A DNA stretch of 44,677 bases from positions 1 to 44,677 of the forward strand of contig JANQQB010000142.1 in the NCBI GenBank assembly GCA_028285165.1, given 5' to 3'. A program made the position numbers and the translations under genes. The stretch comes from Rhodobiaceae bacterium. GTDB taxonomy: Bacteria > Pseudomonadota > Alphaproteobacteria > Rhizobiales > JANQQB01. Shown one piece after another: positions 22,311 through 44,527 of this stretch (the first letter of the stretch is position 1; each line of letters starts with the position of its first letter). Under the pieces are notes generated by a model. It ran no database searches. It was not told the DNA's origin and saw nothing but the letters and a program-made list of their open reading frames with translations.

Positions 22311-22670
22311 ATGTCGCAAACTATGTTCGACCGATACGGCGGATTTGCGGCCGTCAGCAAGATCGTGTTGTCGTTTTACGATAAGGCGTTGGACTCCGAT
22401 ACGATCGGCAAGTATTTCGAGCATGTCGACCTGCCGGCCCTGATCGATCATCAGACGAAGTTCATCAGTTCCGTTATGGGAGGACCGGCAAGCTATACGA
22501 ATGAACAATTGGAGCGCATTCATGCCGGCCTGGCTATCGATAAGGACGCCATGGACGAAATGATCGACCTCCTGGAAGAGACGCTGGAGGAATTCGGTCT
22601 GGATGCGACGGATGTCGATCATCTCGTCGGTGAAATAAGGGGACGGACGTCCTACATCGTCTCGGCCTGA
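22311..22670 (+). CDS. Group I truncated hemoglobin-like protein
   Basis: A 119-residue protein with the truncated-globin fold pattern: the MFDRYGGFAAVSKIV start, Tyr23 at the B10 position in SFYDKAL, the helix E segment DHQTKFISSVMGGPASY, and the proximal heme-ligand His71 in ERIHAGL. These residues are those needed to bind heme and O2, NO or CO. The stop is 24 bases before the cyclase start at 22695, so the two genes almost certainly form one transcript. That makes a gas-sensing or NO-protecting role coupled to cAMP signalling plausible, although the sequence does not show direct contact. Confidence 0.85.
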   Translation: MSQTMFDRYGGFAAVSKIVLSFYDKALDSDTIGKYFEHVDLPALIDHQTKFISSVMGGPASYTNEQLERIHAGLAIDKDAMDEMIDLLEETLEEFGLDATDVDHLVGEIRGRTSYIVSA

Positions 22671-22694
22671 CGCAGCGAGGTTCGGATAGGCGAC

Positions 22695-23777
22695 ATGAAC
22701 CTCGACAGATTCAACCAGATGCTCCTGGAATCGATCGATGTTGGCCTCGCGATCCTGGCCGACGGCTCGGGCGATCTGGTGTTCGGCAACCGACGGTTTC
22801 TCGAATGGTATCCCGGCACGGTCGGAGTTGCCCGCTCACTGCGCGACTTCATCGAAGACCTCGACGAAGAAAAACTTTTCAAGCGCCTCGACGAAAAGGG
22901 CGTCGCAACATTCGAGACGACGGTACAGCCGAAACGCCGGCCGATCTCACTGAAATTGACGATTTCACGCCATCAATATGACGGCAATCCGGTCCTGATG
23001 CTGGAGTTTCAGAACATCTCCAAAATCAAGGAACTGGAATACATGATCGAATCCTATTCCAAGATGGTGGAGAAACAGAACCGCACGCTGCAGCGTGAGA
23101 AGGAGCGTGTCGAGAAGTTGCTCCTAAACGTCATGCCGAAGCAGGTCTATGAAGAGCTGAAGGAATTCGGCGTCACGACCCCGCAACGCTACGACGAAGC
23201 GTCGATCCTGCTGATGGACTTCGTCGGTTTCACCGACATGGCGATCGCTCGCGATCCGGGCGCGATCGTTTCCGAACTGAACGACATGTTCACCGCCTTC
23301 GATCGGATCGCCGAGCAGTTCGGGTGCGAACGCATCAAGACCGCCGGCGATTCCTACATGGCAGTTTCCGGAATTCCCGATTTCACGCCGGATCACGCCG
23401 TCAACATCGCGAAGCTGGCTGTCCTGATCCGGCGCTATCTGCAGCGCCGCAATGCGGCGCATTCGCGCCATTGGGAATGCCGGATCGGCATCAATTCCGG
23501 TGTCGTTATCGGCTCGATCATCGGCGTCCAGAAATATGTCTATGACATATTCGGGCCGGGGGTGAACCTGGCCGCGCGCATGGAAAGTCTGTGTGAGCCG
23601 ATGATGATCACATTGTGCGAAGATATGGTCGACCTGGTGAAAAACGACTTCCGCATCACCGATGCCGGATCGGCCGACATCAAAGGGTTCGGGCAAAAGA
23701 AGATCTTTACGCTGAATGCGGGCCAGGCGTCGCTGGCACCGAAATCAGACGGGATGGACGACGGGTTCGCGATCTGA
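22695..23777 (+). CDS. Cytoplasmic PAS-linked class III adenylate cyclase
   Basis: A 360-residue soluble cyclase. A PAS-like domain (about 5-110) is followed by a coiled-coil signalling helix (EKQNRTLQREKERVEKLL) and a catalytic domain at about 160-345. Catalytic residues are complete: metal-binding Asp175 (LLMDFVGFT) and Asp219 (IKTAGDSY), adenine-specifying Lys215 and Asp284 (YVYDIFG), and transition-state Asn291 and Arg295 (GVNLAARM). The Lys/Asp pair predicts ATP rather than GTP. The signalling-helix-to-catalytic junction (LLLNVMPKQVYEELKEFG) resembles soluble cyclases controlled by heme proteins. The gene follows a globin by 24 bases. Confidence 0.9.
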   Translation: MNLDRFNQMLLESIDVGLAILADGSGDLVFGNRRFLEWYPGTVGVARSLRDFIEDLDEEKLFKRLDEKGVATFETTVQPKRRPISLKLTISRHQYDGNPVLMLEFQNISKIKELEYMIESYSKMVEKQNRTLQREKERVEKLLLNVMPKQVYEELKEFGVTTPQRYDEASILLMDFVGFTDMAIARDPGAIVSELNDMFTAFDRIAEQFGCERIKTAGDSYMAVSGIPDFTPDHAVNIAKLAVLIRRYLQRRNAAHSRHWECRIGINSGVVIGSIIGVQKYVYDIFGPGVNLAARMESLCEPMMITLCEDMVDLVKNDFRITDAGSADIKGFGQKKIFTLNAGQASLAPKSDGMDDGFAI

Positions 23778-27534: not shown

Positions 27535-28596
27535 TCAATCGTCATGTTCGCCAAGGCTGGCATCCGTTTCTTTACCGCGCCGCCAATATGCAACAGACAA
27601 TTGATGGTCTTTGTCGAGCCCGAGTTCCTGCTTGAAGAGCCTGCGCATCGATTGAGCTTCGTCAAACTCACCTCCGAACCAGGCGTACTGGACGTTGGAT
27701 TCCGCGCTGACAAGGCGCGACGCTTCGGCATAGAGGCTGCCGCCATCGACCTCGCGGACCGTGAGGGATGTTTCGGGAAGGTATTGCCGTCCGGAACCAG
27801 GTTGACTTGCCGTGACAAGAACGGTCCCTGCAGCGTTTTCAGGCAGCGCTTCCAGGATCCGCGCAATCGCTGGCAATGCGGTATAATCACCTGCCAGGAA
27901 TAGGCACCCGGTCGTCTCGGGAATTCCGCCGCCCCCAGGGCCCATCAACCCGAGTGAGGCACCTTTCCTGGCAGTCGATGCCCATTCTGCGATCTTGCCA
28001 CCGTAGTGGCGAACGACATCTATTGTCACTGTTTTCCGGACAAGGTCGAAAGATCGGATCGTGTAGTAACGAACATGGAGCTTATCTGGTCCCTGGGGCC
28101 AGGCAGTCGTCCCGTTCTTTGCAACGGCGGGCCAAACCGGTTCCCTTGCAGCATCCGAGGGAATCATCAGCTTGATGTGCAACCCGTCGGTGCCCAAGGC
28201 GGCACAATCATCGACCTGCAGCCGCAGGCGGATCATCATGTCGTGGACCGGTTCGCAGCTCTCGACAGTCGCCAGCTGAAAGTTCGGCGGACGGGCTGCG
28301 GCGCCGCCGTCCGACCATCGCAGGGCCAAGGCGGCGTCCGGCTCAGTTTCCGACAGGTGCTGAACGACCGCCTCCTTTACGAAGTACAAGATATTGGGGC
28401 TCGGTGCCCGTACAACAAAACCGAGGGAATCCGGTCGCTCTGCGATGTGCACTTCGAAGCCATCGTATCGGAAGACAACACCGGACCCGGCGGATGGCTC
28501 GGCCGGTATACCGTGCTCTTCAAGATGAGAACAAAAGGCGCGAAACGCTTCGCTCGGCTTGGCAAGTGTGACATTTGCCTTCGCTTCGGCGGTCAT
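27535..28596 (-). CDS. DUF2218 / siderophore-interacting (ferric-siderophore reductase) protein
   Basis: A 353-residue cytoplasmic flavoprotein. The N-terminal ~90 residues match DUF2218 (FRYDGFEVHIAERPDSLGF). The rest is a siderophore-interacting reductase: an FAD-binding barrel with HVRYYTIRSFDLV (R-x-Y-T-x-R), the WASTARKGASLGLMGPGG turn and LFLAGDYTALPAIARIL, then a C-terminal NAD(P)H domain ending WRRGK. It would reduce ferric siderophore to release iron. TTGGAGG lies before the ATG. It overlaps the stop of the MFS permease gene by 4 bases, so the two are coupled, and TonB receptor and regulator lie upstream in the same orientation. Confidence 0.88.
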   Translation of the reverse strand: MTAEAKANVTLAKPSEAFRAFCSHLEEHGIPAEPSAGSGVVFRYDGFEVHIAERPDSLGFVVRAPSPNILYFVKEAVVQHLSETEPDAALALRWSDGGAAARPPNFQLATVESCEPVHDMMIRLRLQVDDCAALGTDGLHIKLMIPSDAAREPVWPAVAKNGTTAWPQGPDKLHVRYYTIRSFDLVRKTVTIDVVRHYGGKIAEWASTARKGASLGLMGPGGGGIPETTGCLFLAGDYTALPAIARILEALPENAAGTVLVTASQPGSGRQYLPETSLTVREVDGGSLYAEASRLVSAESNVQYAWFGGEFDEAQSMRRLFKQELGLDKDHQLSVAYWRRGKETDASLGEHDD

Positions 28597-29822
28597 GGGC
28601 TGGCCTCCAAGGGCTCGGATGAGATGTCGAATTCGGCAATGGAGCACCAAGCCCAATAGGAGCCGATGGCGGAAATGGCAGCACCGGTGAGCAAGAGAGG
28701 CGTCATCCCCAATGTGTCCAAGAGGGCTGCGGACAGACCGGCGATCAGCAAGATGCAAACGGCTTCGAGGCTGGCAAAGCTCGCCAATTCGGTCGCTTTG
28801 CTTTCACCCCGGCACCGCGGCATCAGGAGGGCCCGACTTGTGGTAAAGCCCGCAAAGACGACTGCGCTTGAAAAGATCACCATGAAGACCGCAACGGATG
28901 GCTCAACGGTGTCGACCGACATGAGCCCGCATGCGGCCATGACGCTGGCGATGAGCAAGCCGGTGAGCGCTTTCATGCGCATGGCGCCGAACCGTTCGAT
29001 AAGCGGGCGGATGGCGAAAGCGCCGACAATGCCGGCGGCGTTCGCGAACAGGATGCCGATCAGGCCGCCCTGCGAAACCGAAAATCCGGCATCGATGAGC
29101 AGAAGCGCTTTCATGCTGTAGGGGACAATCATCGCAGCGTTCACCAGGAGCGACAGGGCGAAGAGGCGTCGCGTGTCGCTTCTGGTAAAGATCGACAATT
29201 GGGTCCAAAACCGACGCCGGCCGCCCGGGCTCCACGCGTCACGCTGTCGGCGGAAAACCGGCATCAAGGCAAAGAACATCACTCCGGATACCGTCAGGAT
29301 TGCCAACACGACCGGTGCCCATCCGACATCCCCAAGCACATAGATCACGCCTGCGCCCAGAACGAGACCGGCTGCCGCGGCCGATCCGGCCTGGACAGAT
29401 GCGCCTTTCGCGAACTCGGAGGCCTGCAGGGCTTCGATCATGAAACCGCCGCCCGCGGTCTTTTGAGTGCCGACGGCAACCATTAGGAGGAACAGTAGCG
29501 CCACCGTCAGGATAAGGTTCTCAGCCGGTTGCAGAGGTACGAGCAAGGCGATCATGGCGCAGGCAGCCAATTGGCTGCCGAGAATCCACCCGCCGAACTT
29601 TCCGAACTGAACGGAACCGTATCGATCGATAAGAGGTGCCCATAGAAACGGCAGCGTGAACGGAATGCCCGCGAGATAGACCAGACCGATCTGTTCCGAT
29701 GGTAGTCCCGCATCGCGCAGGAAAAGCGGAACACCCTGCACGACGAACTGTCCAAGAATGGCCTGCGCGAATGCCAGCGCACCGATCGTAATAAGGACCG
29801 TGTTCAAGGACGTCCGTTGCAC
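28593..29822 (-). CDS. MFS permease, RhtX/FptX-like siderophore importer
   Basis: A 409-residue protein with about 12 membrane segments of the major facilitator superfamily. The N-terminal region GVPLFLRDAGLPSEQIGLVY and LWAPLIDRYG resemble the AmpG/RhtX/FptX group, which carries intact ferric siderophores across the inner membrane. The start is GTG at 29822 with AGGA eight bases before it. Its context, directly after a TonB receptor gene and coupled to a siderophore reductase, supports siderophore import over peptidoglycan-fragment import by AmpG. Confidence 0.82.
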   Translation of the reverse strand: MQRTSLNTVLITIGALAFAQAILGQFVVQGVPLFLRDAGLPSEQIGLVYLAGIPFTLPFLWAPLIDRYGSVQFGKFGGWILGSQLAACAMIALLVPLQPAENLILTVALLFLLMVAVGTQKTAGGGFMIEALQASEFAKGASVQAGSAAAAGLVLGAGVIYVLGDVGWAPVVLAILTVSGVMFFALMPVFRRQRDAWSPGGRRRFWTQLSIFTRSDTRRLFALSLLVNAAMIVPYSMKALLLIDAGFSVSQGGLIGILFANAAGIVGAFAIRPLIERFGAMRMKALTGLLIASVMAACGLMSVDTVEPSVAVFMVIFSSAVVFAGFTTSRALLMPRCRGESKATELASFASLEAVCILLIAGLSAALLDTLGMTPLLLTGAAISAIGSYWAWCSIAEFDISSEPLEASP

Positions 29823-29831
29823 GATCCGTTC

Positions 29832-31937
29832 CTACCAGCGCGCCGTAATCGTCAAACCGGCGGTCAGCGGGTCTGTGACATCGGCGTATTGCTGGTTTGA
29901 AATGAACCGCGTCACACCGGTTTCGTCGAACAGGTTGTTGACATATCCGCGTAGCTTGAAATTGCGATATTCCGTCGTCACACCAAGATCGACAATCGTG
30001 TAATCGCCCACCTTGTCCGCAGCAATATTGTTGAAATCGTTGAAGGATTCGCCGCGATATGTGACCCTGCCGTCAACGCTCAGATAGTCGTTGATCCGAA
30101 GCACGGCGCCGAGCGAGGCGGTCAGGTTGGGATCCTGTCCAAAGGTGTTGCCTTCGATCGTCGGTGTAATGGCGCTTGCTTCCGTGATCTCGGTGTCGAG
30201 CAATCCCAGCGATCCGGTAAGCTGCAGATGCTCGTTCACTTTCCAGGACGCATCGAATTCAATACCGTACGACACACCCTTTTGCTGGTTCACCACCTGC
30301 AGGGACGCTCGGTTTCCCGGCACCAGTTCGGCGTAGAACTGAGGGTCGTCGAAGAGATTGTAAAAAGCTGTCGCGCCGACATTCAGACGACCGCCCAGAG
30401 CGGTGTGGCGGTATGTCGATTCAAACGTCGATACCGTTTCGCTTTCATATTGATACGGCGCGCCGGTGAAAATGTTCACTGACGATCCGCCCGGATTGTA
30501 GCCGCGCCGGCCCGACACACTCAAAACGCGGTCTTCGTCAAAGTGATAGGCAATGCCGAGGCTGGGCAGGAACGCGTATTCAATCTCGAAGAACCGTTGT
30601 TGCCCGGCGATCGGTCCCGCGGCGCTCACCTGTATCCGTGAATCGGCGTACCGTTGAAGTCGGGCGCCCCCGAAGACTGTCAAACCGTCCGTCAGACCAT
30701 AGCGAAGATCGGCGAAGGCGGACTGGGATGCAGTTTCAACATCGCTTTGAAACCTGAAAAGACCGGAGATTTCAGTTGTCTGCGCGCGTTTCTCAAAAGC
30801 CAGGCCGAGCAATCCGGCGAATTGTCGAGCGCGAACGCGCTGATCCGGCCCGAATTCATAAAGGAATTCCTGGACAAAGATGTCTTCCTCGACATCGAAC
30901 GGAAACTGATAGACCTGACCGGAAATACTCTCGTAATCATCGCCGGTATAGCTGCTGATTGATTGCAGCGTGCTGTGTCCCAGATCGAGCGAAGTATCTA
31001 GGGCCAGGGTTGTCGCCCGCGTATTGAAGGTGCGAGCCGGAATGCCGAGCGGACCGGCGGCCGCGTTGACGAGGATCCGATCACTGAGCGGGCGTCCGGT
31101 GAGCACCGGGCCCTGGACCGTATTGCGCGTCTGCGGGGTCTGGCCGGCCTGGTGTTCGGCAAGCACATTTGCCGTGACCGTACCAAGCGCGGTGTCGAAA
31201 TTGCCAAGCAGTTTTGTGCGAACCCGCACATTGTCATACTCGGTGATCCAGTCGTCGTCGACGTCGGTTGCCCGCCGCGGGTCGGCACCGTCCTTCAACT
31301 CAAAGGCCAGGCGTCCGGCAACGACATCCGACAACGGACCGGAGACCATACCGTTCAGGAAAAGGTCCGGACCATGAAATTCGTCAAATTCAATACCGGC
31401 TTGTATTGCGGCTTCGGGTTGAAATGACGGATCGTTGGTGTCCACGATGATCGCCCCGGCCAGACCCGATCGTCCGCGCAACAGCGTCTGCGGACCGCGG
31501 AGCACTTCGACCTGTCGTGTATCCCAAAGAGACGTGGCACTCGAATTCGGCAGCACAGCCGGTCGGGTAACGCCATCGACGATCACTGAAAGGCGCGGCA
31601 AGGCGCCGGTCAGACCGGCCGAAACAAGGCCGCCGGCCCCTCCCCCTTGAACCCCTCTGATGGAGGGCAATTCGCTTTTGCCCTCGACAAACAGGTTCGG
31701 AGTGGTTCGTAGGACATCGTTGATGTGAGCTTGCGGATTCTGTTCTATGCCGTCCTCGGTGATGATCGAGGCACCGACATAGGTCTCAGACAATTGCCGT
31801 GGCTGACGTTCCCCAGTGACAACGATCGGATCGAGCACCGTGACTCCGGCTTGCTGGGCCGATGCGGGCGGCGCTGCCGCGGCACCAAGAACAAAACACA
31901 TTCCATAGACCGAAGTCCGAAACCCCACGATTTCCAC
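29832..31937 (-). CDS. TonB-dependent siderophore receptor
   Basis: A 701-residue outer-membrane receptor. A signal peptide (ending about PPASAQQ) is followed by a TonB-box-like DPIVVTGER, a plug domain (SIITEDGIEQNPQAHINDVL, then RQVEVLRGPQTLLRGRSGLAG) and a 22-strand-type barrel ending in a C-terminal tryptophan, as expected for outer-membrane assembly. The start is GTG at 31937 with a GGTAGG upstream; an ATG at 31901 would shorten the leader. Its stop is 9 bases before the MFS start, so receptor, permease and reductase form one operon. Substrate is probably a hydroxamate or similar siderophore made by other organisms, since no synthesis gene is present. Confidence 0.92.
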   Translation of the reverse strand: MEIVGFRTSVYGMCFVLGAAAAPPASAQQAGVTVLDPIVVTGERQPRQLSETYVGASIITEDGIEQNPQAHINDVLRTTPNLFVEGKSELPSIRGVQGGGAGGLVSAGLTGALPRLSVIVDGVTRPAVLPNSSATSLWDTRQVEVLRGPQTLLRGRSGLAGAIIVDTNDPSFQPEAAIQAGIEFDEFHGPDLFLNGMVSGPLSDVVAGRLAFELKDGADPRRATDVDDDWITEYDNVRVRTKLLGNFDTALGTVTANVLAEHQAGQTPQTRNTVQGPVLTGRPLSDRILVNAAAGPLGIPARTFNTRATTLALDTSLDLGHSTLQSISSYTGDDYESISGQVYQFPFDVEEDIFVQEFLYEFGPDQRVRARQFAGLLGLAFEKRAQTTEISGLFRFQSDVETASQSAFADLRYGLTDGLTVFGGARLQRYADSRIQVSAAGPIAGQQRFFEIEYAFLPSLGIAYHFDEDRVLSVSGRRGYNPGGSSVNIFTGAPYQYESETVSTFESTYRHTALGGRLNVGATAFYNLFDDPQFYAELVPGNRASLQVVNQQKGVSYGIEFDASWKVNEHLQLTGSLGLLDTEITEASAITPTIEGNTFGQDPNLTASLGAVLRINDYLSVDGRVTYRGESFNDFNNIAADKVGDYTIVDLGVTTEYRNFKLRGYVNNLFDETGVTRFISNQQYADVTDPLTAGLTITARW

Positions 31938-42176: not shown

Positions 42177-42273
42177 AACAAACGCCGATCAGCCCCTCGC
42201 CTATCAGGAATCGCCTTGCTATGCATTGCATTTATCTTCCCTGCGACCCTTCATTCCGGATTGTCCAAACCTC

Positions 42274-43101
42274 ATGACCCTGATCGCCCAGATCTCCGAT
42301 TCCCACATCTGCGCACAAGGCGTTCCAGCCTATCGCGTCGTCGAAACCAACATGCTTGCCGAACGTGCCGTGGCTGCGGTGAACCGGCTGGATCCGCAGC
42401 CTGACTTCATCGTCATCACGGGTGATCTGGTCGATCACGGCAAGGCAGAAGAATACCAGGTGGCGCGACGGATCATGGACGACCTAAAGGCACCTTACGC
42501 GGTGATTCCGGGCAACCATGATTCATCAGCCGCGCTCAAGAGCTGCTATGCCGATTGTGACTGGGCGCGGCAAACCGAAGGCGACAGTCTGCAATTCTGC
42601 CTGCGGGTCGGAGACCTTCGGCTGATCGGCCTCAACAGTGCGGTCGACGGCAAGCATTACGGCCTGTTGACCGAGGCGGAACTGGCCTGGCTCGAAACAG
42701 AACTCGAGCGGGACAAATCGGTGCCCACGCTGGTCGCCCTGCACCATCCGCCGATTGTCACCGGCCTGCAGGCCATGGATCGAAGCAAATTGCGGAATTC
42801 TGAAGATCTTGCCGCTGTCCTGTCGCGCTACGACACCATCCTGCGGGTGATCTGCGGGCATGACCATCGAACCGTCTTTGCGCCGTTCGGCGGCACCACG
42901 CTGACCATTGCACCCGGCCTCGCCCATCAGGTTTCGCTCGACTTGCGCGCAGATCGCCCTCAGACCTTCAATTTCGAACCGCCAGCCTTTCTGATGCATT
43001 GCTACTCACCGGAACACGGGCTCGTCACGCATATGGCCTATGTCGAGAGCTTTCCCGGACCGTTTCCGTTCTGGCCGGATAGCGGCGTCACCTGGCCCTG
43101 A
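42274..43101 (+). CDS. CpdA-like class III cyclic nucleotide phosphodiesterase
   Basis: A 275-residue metallophosphoesterase. Metal ligands are in order: Asp and His in ISDSHIC, Asp in ITGDLVD, GNHD, His in ALHHPPI, and GHDHR. The overall layout matches CpdA/GpdQ-type enzymes that cleave 3',5'-cAMP or phosphodiesters. The ATG at 42274 directly precedes the conserved start; the frame is open upstream (to 41986) but overlaps the divergent GT39 gene and is non-coding in character. The gene converges on a membrane cyclase (stops 36 bases apart), so synthesis and breakdown of the same messenger may be encoded side by side. Confidence 0.87.
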   Translation: MTLIAQISDSHICAQGVPAYRVVETNMLAERAVAAVNRLDPQPDFIVITGDLVDHGKAEEYQVARRIMDDLKAPYAVIPGNHDSSAALKSCYADCDWARQTEGDSLQFCLRVGDLRLIGLNSAVDGKHYGLLTEAELAWLETELERDKSVPTLVALHHPPIVTGLQAMDRSKLRNSEDLAAVLSRYDTILRVICGHDHRTVFAPFGGTTLTIAPGLAHQVSLDLRADRPQTFNFEPPAFLMHCYSPEHGLVTHMAYVESFPGPFPFWPDSGVTWP

Positions 43102-43137: not shown

Positions 43138-44502
43138 CTACCGGCAGGTCACGACGATATCGATCGGATGGGGGGTGCCGGCAACCTGCCGATTTTGCAG
43201 GACTTCGGCGATTCGCTGCGCCTCGTAGCCCTGTTCGACCGCCATGTCGAAGGTCTGCCGGGTCGTCAGCGCCCGTACCCCTTCGACCTTGTTGTGCTTT
43301 TCCAGCTTGGCCGCCATGTTGGCGGCCTCGCCGATGACTGTGAATTCCAGTCGTGTCTTGGATCCGAGCGCGGCAAAGACGATCGGTCCGGCCGCCACGG
43401 ACCCGTTCACGTCGAGGTCGGAACCTGAAACGGGTCCCGTCTGGCCGCTTCGCCAGATGTCGGCCGCTTCCATGACCGCATCAAGGGCGCGGAGCGCGTC
43501 CGCGGCGGCGGTGCGCGATTCGGTGACGGCTCCGAAGGTCGCCATGATGCCGTCGCCGAGAAACTTGTCGACAACACCGTTATGCGCCCGGATGACGGGA
43601 ATGACGGTTGCGTGAAAGTCAGTGAGGAGATGCACGACATCCCGCGGCGGAAAATGCGTCGAGAGGCGCGTGAAGCCGCGGATATCCAGCATGAGGATCG
43701 CAGCGTCGCGTTCGATGCCCTGGCCGGCCTCCACCACATCTTCAGCCGCGGTAATGGCCTCGTCGACGCCCTCGGAAAGGAAGCGCTTGATTTCCTGGTG
43801 CGCCGCCTCTTCGCGGACCGCCGACACCAGGACGCGTCTGGCCCGCCAGGCGGCATAGGTCAGGATCAGGGTCATGGCGAGCAGCGCGAAGATCTTGTCG
43901 AACTCTGCCCCGATCAGCACGTAATTGCCGGTCAGGTATTCGACGAAGTTGCGGGTGACGCCGTCCATGCCGGCCTCGTAGAGCGCATAACCGAGCATGA
44001 AAAGCCAACCGATGCAGGCGAAGGCTCCAGCCGACAGCACAAAGCGATGGTCAAACCGCAGAGCTCGTACCGCGATGAATATGAAGACATAGAGGAAAGT
44101 CGGCACCTTGAGATAGAAAGCTGCCGGCTGTTCGTATTGCAGGTGAAACGTCCAGATCAGGCCGAAAAGCATCGCAAAATCGATGATCATCGACATCACA
44201 AGCAGCCAGCCGGGCAGATAGTGATGGTAGCTGAGCCAGATGCGCACCAGGGTGAAAGTCAGATAGAGGGCGAGCGCGAACGGGACGGGTTGGAACTCGG
44301 CCATCAGCGTGTCGGTCGGTTTTGGCGACACGATATAGAGAATGCCGAAAATCCCGATAAGCGTCAGTTGCACCCAGCCGATGACCTGTTCGCTGCGTTC
44401 CTCCTGAGCATACAGGATGGTTTGCACCCGCTGCGGCAAATGACGTTCGGCTTCCGTGGTTCCCAGGTGTGTTCCCAGGCTTTTCGGCAGGAAATGTTTC
44501 AT
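43138..44502 (-). CDS. Membrane-bound class III adenylate/guanylate cyclase
   Basis: A 454-residue protein with six membrane segments (about residues 40-220), a short coiled coil and a C-terminal class III catalytic domain. The metal-binding aspartates are present: Asp273 (LMLDIRGFT) and Asp317 (DKFLGDGIMA). In the transition-state motif, Asn395 is kept but the usual Arg is Lys399 (GEAANMAAKLEK). The ATG at 44502 is chosen; an in-frame GTG at 44520 is possible. Neither has a strong binding site. The upstream gene ends only 26 bases away (44528), so both may be in one operon. It faces the CpdA-like phosphodiesterase. Confidence 0.87.
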   Translation of the reverse strand: MKHFLPKSLGTHLGTTEAERHLPQRVQTILYAQEERSEQVIGWVQLTLIGIFGILYIVSPKPTDTLMAEFQPVPFALALYLTFTLVRIWLSYHHYLPGWLLVMSMIIDFAMLFGLIWTFHLQYEQPAAFYLKVPTFLYVFIFIAVRALRFDHRFVLSAGAFACIGWLFMLGYALYEAGMDGVTRNFVEYLTGNYVLIGAEFDKIFALLAMTLILTYAAWRARRVLVSAVREEAAHQEIKRFLSEGVDEAITAAEDVVEAGQGIERDAAILMLDIRGFTRLSTHFPPRDVVHLLTDFHATVIPVIRAHNGVVDKFLGDGIMATFGAVTESRTAAADALRALDAVMEAADIWRSGQTGPVSGSDLDVNGSVAAGPIVFAALGSKTRLEFTVIGEAANMAAKLEKHNKVEGVRALTTRQTFDMAVEQGYEAQRIAEVLQNRQVAGTPHPIDIVVTCR

Positions 44503-44527
44503 CGCGCGTTGGCCTGACACACAGGGA

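Follow-up and report, generated by a model that had tools for sequence, protein, structure and literature searches.

In soluble guanylate cyclase, a heme sensor of the H-NOX type lies upstream of a PAS domain, a signalling helix and a class III catalytic domain, in that order, and GTP is selected through a Glu/Cys purine specificity. In the globin-coupled sensors, which include HemAT, DosC/YddV, AfGcHK and the Leishmania globin-cyclase HemAC-Lm, the heme sensor of the signalling enzyme is a sensor-type globin fused N-terminally within a single chain. Stand-alone H-NOX proteins are encoded beside a histidine kinase or a cyclic-di-GMP enzyme that they regulate in trans. We know of no obligate cyclase partner of the truncated globins GlbN of cyanobacteria or trHbN of M. 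tuberculosis.

The window analysed here, a stretch of 44,677 nucleotides from a Rhodobiaceae bacterium, contains a truncated globin gene followed by the gene for a soluble class III cyclase (Table 1). As in soluble guanylate cyclase, the PAS domain, signalling helix and catalytic domain of this enzyme follow one another with a heme sensor upstream, but the sensor is here a truncated globin and a separate protein, and K215 and D284 predict the use of ATP. Like the globin-coupled sensors, the locus would employ a globin as the heme sensor of a signalling enzyme, but this is a group I truncated globin, and each pair examined has it as a separate gene. The placement of a small free heme sensor gene next to an effector gene recalls the stand-alone H-NOX systems, from which the pair differs in heme fold, in effector, and in that contact is here a proposal; the adjacency and co-inheritance expected of the genes of a trans-acting heme sensor and its effector are found for the globin and the cyclase. 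A search of the open-access literature yielded reviews, work on globin-coupled sensors and the Leishmania globin-cyclase fusion, and no published description of a truncated globin and adenylate cyclase gene pair.

Table 1. Features of the globin-cyclase locus, with positions in the window.
Feature	Positions	Strand	Basis
Group I truncated globin, 119 aa	22311..22670	+	Pfam Bac_globin match, nearest solved structures
Intergenic gap, 24 bases	22671..22694	+	Globin stop to cyclase ATG
Soluble class III adenylate cyclase of 360 aa with PAS domain and signalling helix; conserved partner gene of the globin	22695..23777	+	Profile, residues, adjacency
PAS-fold N-terminal domain, cyclase residues 1-108	22695..23018	+	Predicted fold
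Signalling helix, cyclase residues 109-146	23019..23132	+	Predicted fold
Catalytic domain, class III (D175, K215, D219, D284, N291, R295)	23181..23717	+	Profile, residues

The globin scores 52.3 bits with the Pfam profile Bac_globin, whose cut-off is 21, and among solved structures it comes closest to the group I truncated haemoglobins of Tetrahymena, M. tuberculosis and cyanobacteria (trHbN/GlbN). In an alignment with M. tuberculosis trHbN and Synechocystis GlbN, whose reference sequences were verified against PDB entries 1idr and 1s69, the B10 tyrosine and F8 histidine of both fall on Y23 and H71, confirming the assignments that the first-pass annotation had made in a 119-residue globin; L44, H47 and Q48 take positions E7, E10 and E11. 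With two GG motifs (G10G11 and G57G58) in addition to the profile match, H71 and Y23, the sequence features of the family are present, and the protein is a group I truncated haemoglobin that would be expected to bear heme. It shares TyrB10, GlnE11 and HisF8 with both references and HisE10 with GlbN only, and is distinguished from them by D46 and K50 on the outer face of the E helix, which are specific to cyclase-partnered globins in the set compared.

The cyclase matches Guanylate_cyc with 149 bits. The same annotation had predicted ATP use from its catalytic residues, and the set is indeed complete and of the ATP type: the metal-binding aspartates D175 and D219, the purine-specifying K215 and D284, N291 and R295. 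Across 90 cyclases, both metal aspartates and D284 are invariant (90/90), N291 is found in 86/90 and R295 in 89/90, and position 215 is K in 76 and R in 14. The Lys/Asp pair, together with the two metal aspartates, favours ATP, and ATP as the substrate is thus supported by the residues. The PAS domain and signalling helix had also been likened to those of gas-regulated soluble cyclases, a likeness that stands for the predicted fold and domain order but not for the profiles, since PAS_9 (16.9 bits) and HNOBA (22.8 vs 23.4 bits, spanning the signalling helix only) both stay under their Pfam cut-offs. The top Foldseek match of the modelled chain is human soluble guanylate cyclase; membership of that family was rejected on the shortfall of HNOBA, on K215/D284 in place of Glu/Cys, and on the lack of any H-NOX (HNOB) match in either protein in the Pfam search. 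The N-terminus is predicted as a PAS domain (pLDDT 81, PAS topology) whose best Foldseek matches are the LOV domain of YtvA and other PAS/LOV structures (E about 4e-5), with the heme PAS domains of DosP and FixL among the lower-ranked ones. It is the fastest-changing region of the cyclase, with N32 and R82 its only 95% conserved positions; no His or Cys in it is conserved in the alignment of cyclase orthologues, so a heme or flavin adduct is not expected there. In the predicted fold, a helix of 38 residues joins the PAS domain to the catalytic domain; it belongs to the best-conserved stretch of the cyclase, residues 109-160, where column identity averages 0.77.

Conservation of the pair had been set beforehand as a test, and it was borne out from both directions. 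Starting from the cyclase, a globin lies directly upstream on the same strand in 8/8 full-length orthologues besides the window in a sample of the order (199 genomes; 47-64% identity) and, by coordinates, immediately upstream in 16/16 further ones in a sample of the class (385 genomes), giving 24/24 over both samples, to which one annotated plasmid is added. This is pLA3 of Novosphingobium pentaromativorans US6-1, which carries the sole cyclase orthologue found in complete plasmid records; its globin (WP_007014575.1) ends 4 bases before its cyclase (WP_007014576.1), the two having been annotated independently with no stated link between them. On pLA3 (L179:4001-7996), an ATP-binding protein, probably a histidine kinase, begins 1 base after the pair and is followed by an overlapping response regulator. 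Starting from the globin, the best 80 of 233 candidates in the GTDB genome collection gave 78 loci after two cut by contig ends were set aside, and the cyclase is immediately downstream on the same strand in 78/78, in a set biased by its search patterns, of which the motif DHQTKF was one. None of these 78 loci, drawn from the best 80 of 233 candidates, holds a natural globin-cyclase fusion, and membership of the globin-coupled sensors was rejected on this ground.

In all, about a hundred bacterial genomes besides this one carry the gene pair. No such globin occurs at 21 non-orthologous class III cyclase loci of the order sample, and no such cyclase at 11 ordinary truncated-globin loci. The distribution is patchy, mostly in Alphaproteobacteria but also in Gammaproteobacteria (Marinobacterium, Motiliproteus) and a few Chloroflexota bins, and a phylum-wide sample added almost nothing to this range. 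Some phylum labels of metagenome-assembled genomes are doubtful; one locus labelled Polyangiaceae (L044) falls within Kiloniellaceae in the tree and is probably misbinned. The pair recurs across dozens of lineages, which excludes a chance arrangement. The distribution of gap lengths is tight, and the commonest gap, -4 (an ATGA overlap, 27/96 pairs), is suggestive of coupled translation. In the window, the spacing of 24 bases given by the first-pass annotation is exact; the two open reading frames share one frame across it, and no terminator-like site was seen on its + strand. The host assembly is fragmented (508 contigs, 5.5% contamination), but there are orthologous pairs in genomes of isolates and on a closed plasmid. 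Beyond genus level, the surroundings of the pair share no third gene. Trees of 90 globins and 90 cyclases agree, with a patristic correlation of r = 0.77, where 1000 shuffles reached 0.15 at most; this supports linkage rather than contact, as any long-linked gene pair would show the same. A module that travels and diverges as one would give this pattern. Adjacency is obligate for the cyclase, and the pair is co-inherited.

The globins of these pairs form a recognisable subfamily. Because the globin-seeded set is pattern-biased, invariance was counted in the 21 globins found only via their cyclase, and Y23 (B10), D46 (E9), H47 (E10), Q48 (E11), K50 (E13) and H71 (F8) are each present in 21/21; position 49, also on the outer face of the E helix, is usually T. 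The 11 ordinary truncated globins, which also come from this bacterial class, carry K, M, S or R at E10, and none combines D at E9 with K at E13. This invariant HisE10 is new here, having been absent from the earlier annotation. In cyanobacterial GlbN, HisE10 is the distal heme ligand, and loss of that ligation is coupled to conformational change (PMC11904497, PMC4720485). The alignment places no histidine at E10 of M. tuberculosis trHbN. By analogy, the heme of the partner globins may be hexacoordinated by two histidines through H47, and helix geometry would have the E9 and E13 side chains facing away from the heme. The invariant HisE10, together with D46 and K50, suggests a histidine switch that a ligand can displace, joined to a face for protein binding.

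A handful of globins in the subfamily have no cyclase beside them, which indicates that the globin can have other uses; in these cases, three only, HisE10 is kept and the outer face varies (HHQTRF on contig C282 of the window's own genome, DHQAQF in genome G237 and SHQIET in genome G505). The first of them (locus L001, C282:16518-16871, - strand) lies beside a methyltransferase and a glyoxalase-like gene. In G505 (L174:5626-6437), the globin overlaps, again by ATGA, a 146-aa open reading frame of unknown family where the cyclase would be; it is not claimed as a retained PAS domain, its PAS profile match covering only 38 columns with an hhalign probability of 3. Truncated-globin domains were also encountered in CheA chemotaxis kinases (Hpt, dimerisation, HATPase, CheW and receiver domains), one in a protein of 991 aa (L175:6182-9157, genome G288) and two in a protein of 1198 aa (L176:4359-7955, genome G257). 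Other class-sample genomes have globin matches inside frames of about 870-1040 aa. A literature search found no description of such CheA-truncated-globin fusions.

It is rather probable that the two genes make up a self-contained two-protein module in which the globin is a heme sensor subunit acting in trans on the cyclase. That the cyclase was never found without the globin, and the globin sometimes without the cyclase, fits this arrangement, in which the sensing of gas or redox state would probably fall to the globin as a separate part of the enzyme. In the resting state, HisE10 (H47) would ligate the heme iron opposite HisF8 (H71); O2, NO, another ligand such as CO or a redox change would displace H47 and shift the E helix, whose outer face (D46, K50 and usually T49) would touch the cyclase, most likely at its PAS domain. 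The change would then travel down the signalling helix to the homodimeric catalytic domain and result in more or less cAMP from ATP. Both the contact and the direction of regulation are inferred, and conserved operons may also join proteins of one pathway that never touch. When the pair was folded as an in-frame read-through product (22311-23774, TGA read as Trp), the domains were confident and their mutual arrangement undefined (pLDDT 90, pTM 0.54). Mean-field direct coupling analysis of 90 pairs, with an effective depth of 61 for 479 columns, gave top inter-protein pairs that are scattered and overlapped by random pairings, and these were set aside as evidence. Divergence of the globin correlates with that of the PAS domain, once other regions are removed, in a weak but stable manner (partial r 0.26, subsample sd 0.06); the corresponding value for the catalytic region is higher over all pairs (0.54), while among distant pairs only it is 0.11, vs 0.24 for the PAS domain.

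The window's own genome has 15 class III cyclase matches and 13 cNMP-binding domain matches in profile searches, so cAMP signalling is probably in use there. About 19 kb from the pair, the window also holds a membrane class III cyclase (43138-44520, - strand), beside which lies a CpdA-like metallophosphoesterase (about 42270-43101, + strand), by sequence reading a possible cAMP phosphodiesterase. A separate run of genes at 27535-31937 (- strand), read as a TonB-dependent receptor, an MFS transporter and a siderophore-interacting FAD-binding-like protein in succession, resembles a siderophore uptake cluster.

Other explanations can be offered for so constant a pairing. The globin may work as an NO dioxygenase or a redox enzyme, with the cyclase only co-expressed in one stress response and taking some other input through its PAS domain; the two proteins would then make no contact. 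TyrB10 and GlnE11 do recur in the pocket with which M. tuberculosis trHbN detoxifies NO, a few subfamily globins do exist without a cyclase, and in N. pentaromativorans genes for a histidine kinase-like protein and a response regulator come after the pair. However, a detoxifying enzyme needs no constant adjacency to one cyclase, no orthologue of this cyclase lacked the globin, and no other NO-response gene is conserved nearby; moreover, HisE10, which trHbN lacks, and the outer-face D46 and K50 set the partner globins apart from ordinary ones. This explanation is considered unlikely.

It is a good deal less probable that the globin is an accessory carrier that loads heme onto the PAS domain, or sets its redox state, the PAS domain being the true sensor. 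PAS domains can bind heme, as the DosP and FixL matches recall, but this one has no conserved heme-ligating His or Cys among its two well-conserved positions and is the part of the cyclase that changes fastest. Least probable, and very much so, is a feedback arrangement in which the cyclase regulates the globin operon through cAMP and a CRP-type factor, leaving the globin as an output only: the 13 cNMP-binding matches speak for it, but with 15 class III cyclase matches in the genome feedback would not require this particular enzyme, nor would it call for genes that adjoin, overlap and agree in their trees over such divergence.

The sensor-subunit reading, in its most specific form, is that of a widespread and undescribed two-protein gas or redox sensor whose bis-histidyl globin, of truncated group I, would use a switch in its E helix to control an adenylate cyclase in trans; the chances of this full account are judged to be about even. 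If true, bacteria would have their own equivalent of soluble guanylate cyclase, built on another heme sensor and another second messenger, and gas or redox state would control cAMP signalling in many Alphaproteobacteria. What most truncated globins do in bacteria is unsettled, with O2/NO chemistry, detoxification and sensing all considered, and a subfamily so strictly tied to one enzyme allows a signalling role of a truncated globin to be tested directly. Being free-standing, the globin is also far more accessible to titration, mutation and spectroscopy than the fused sensors are.
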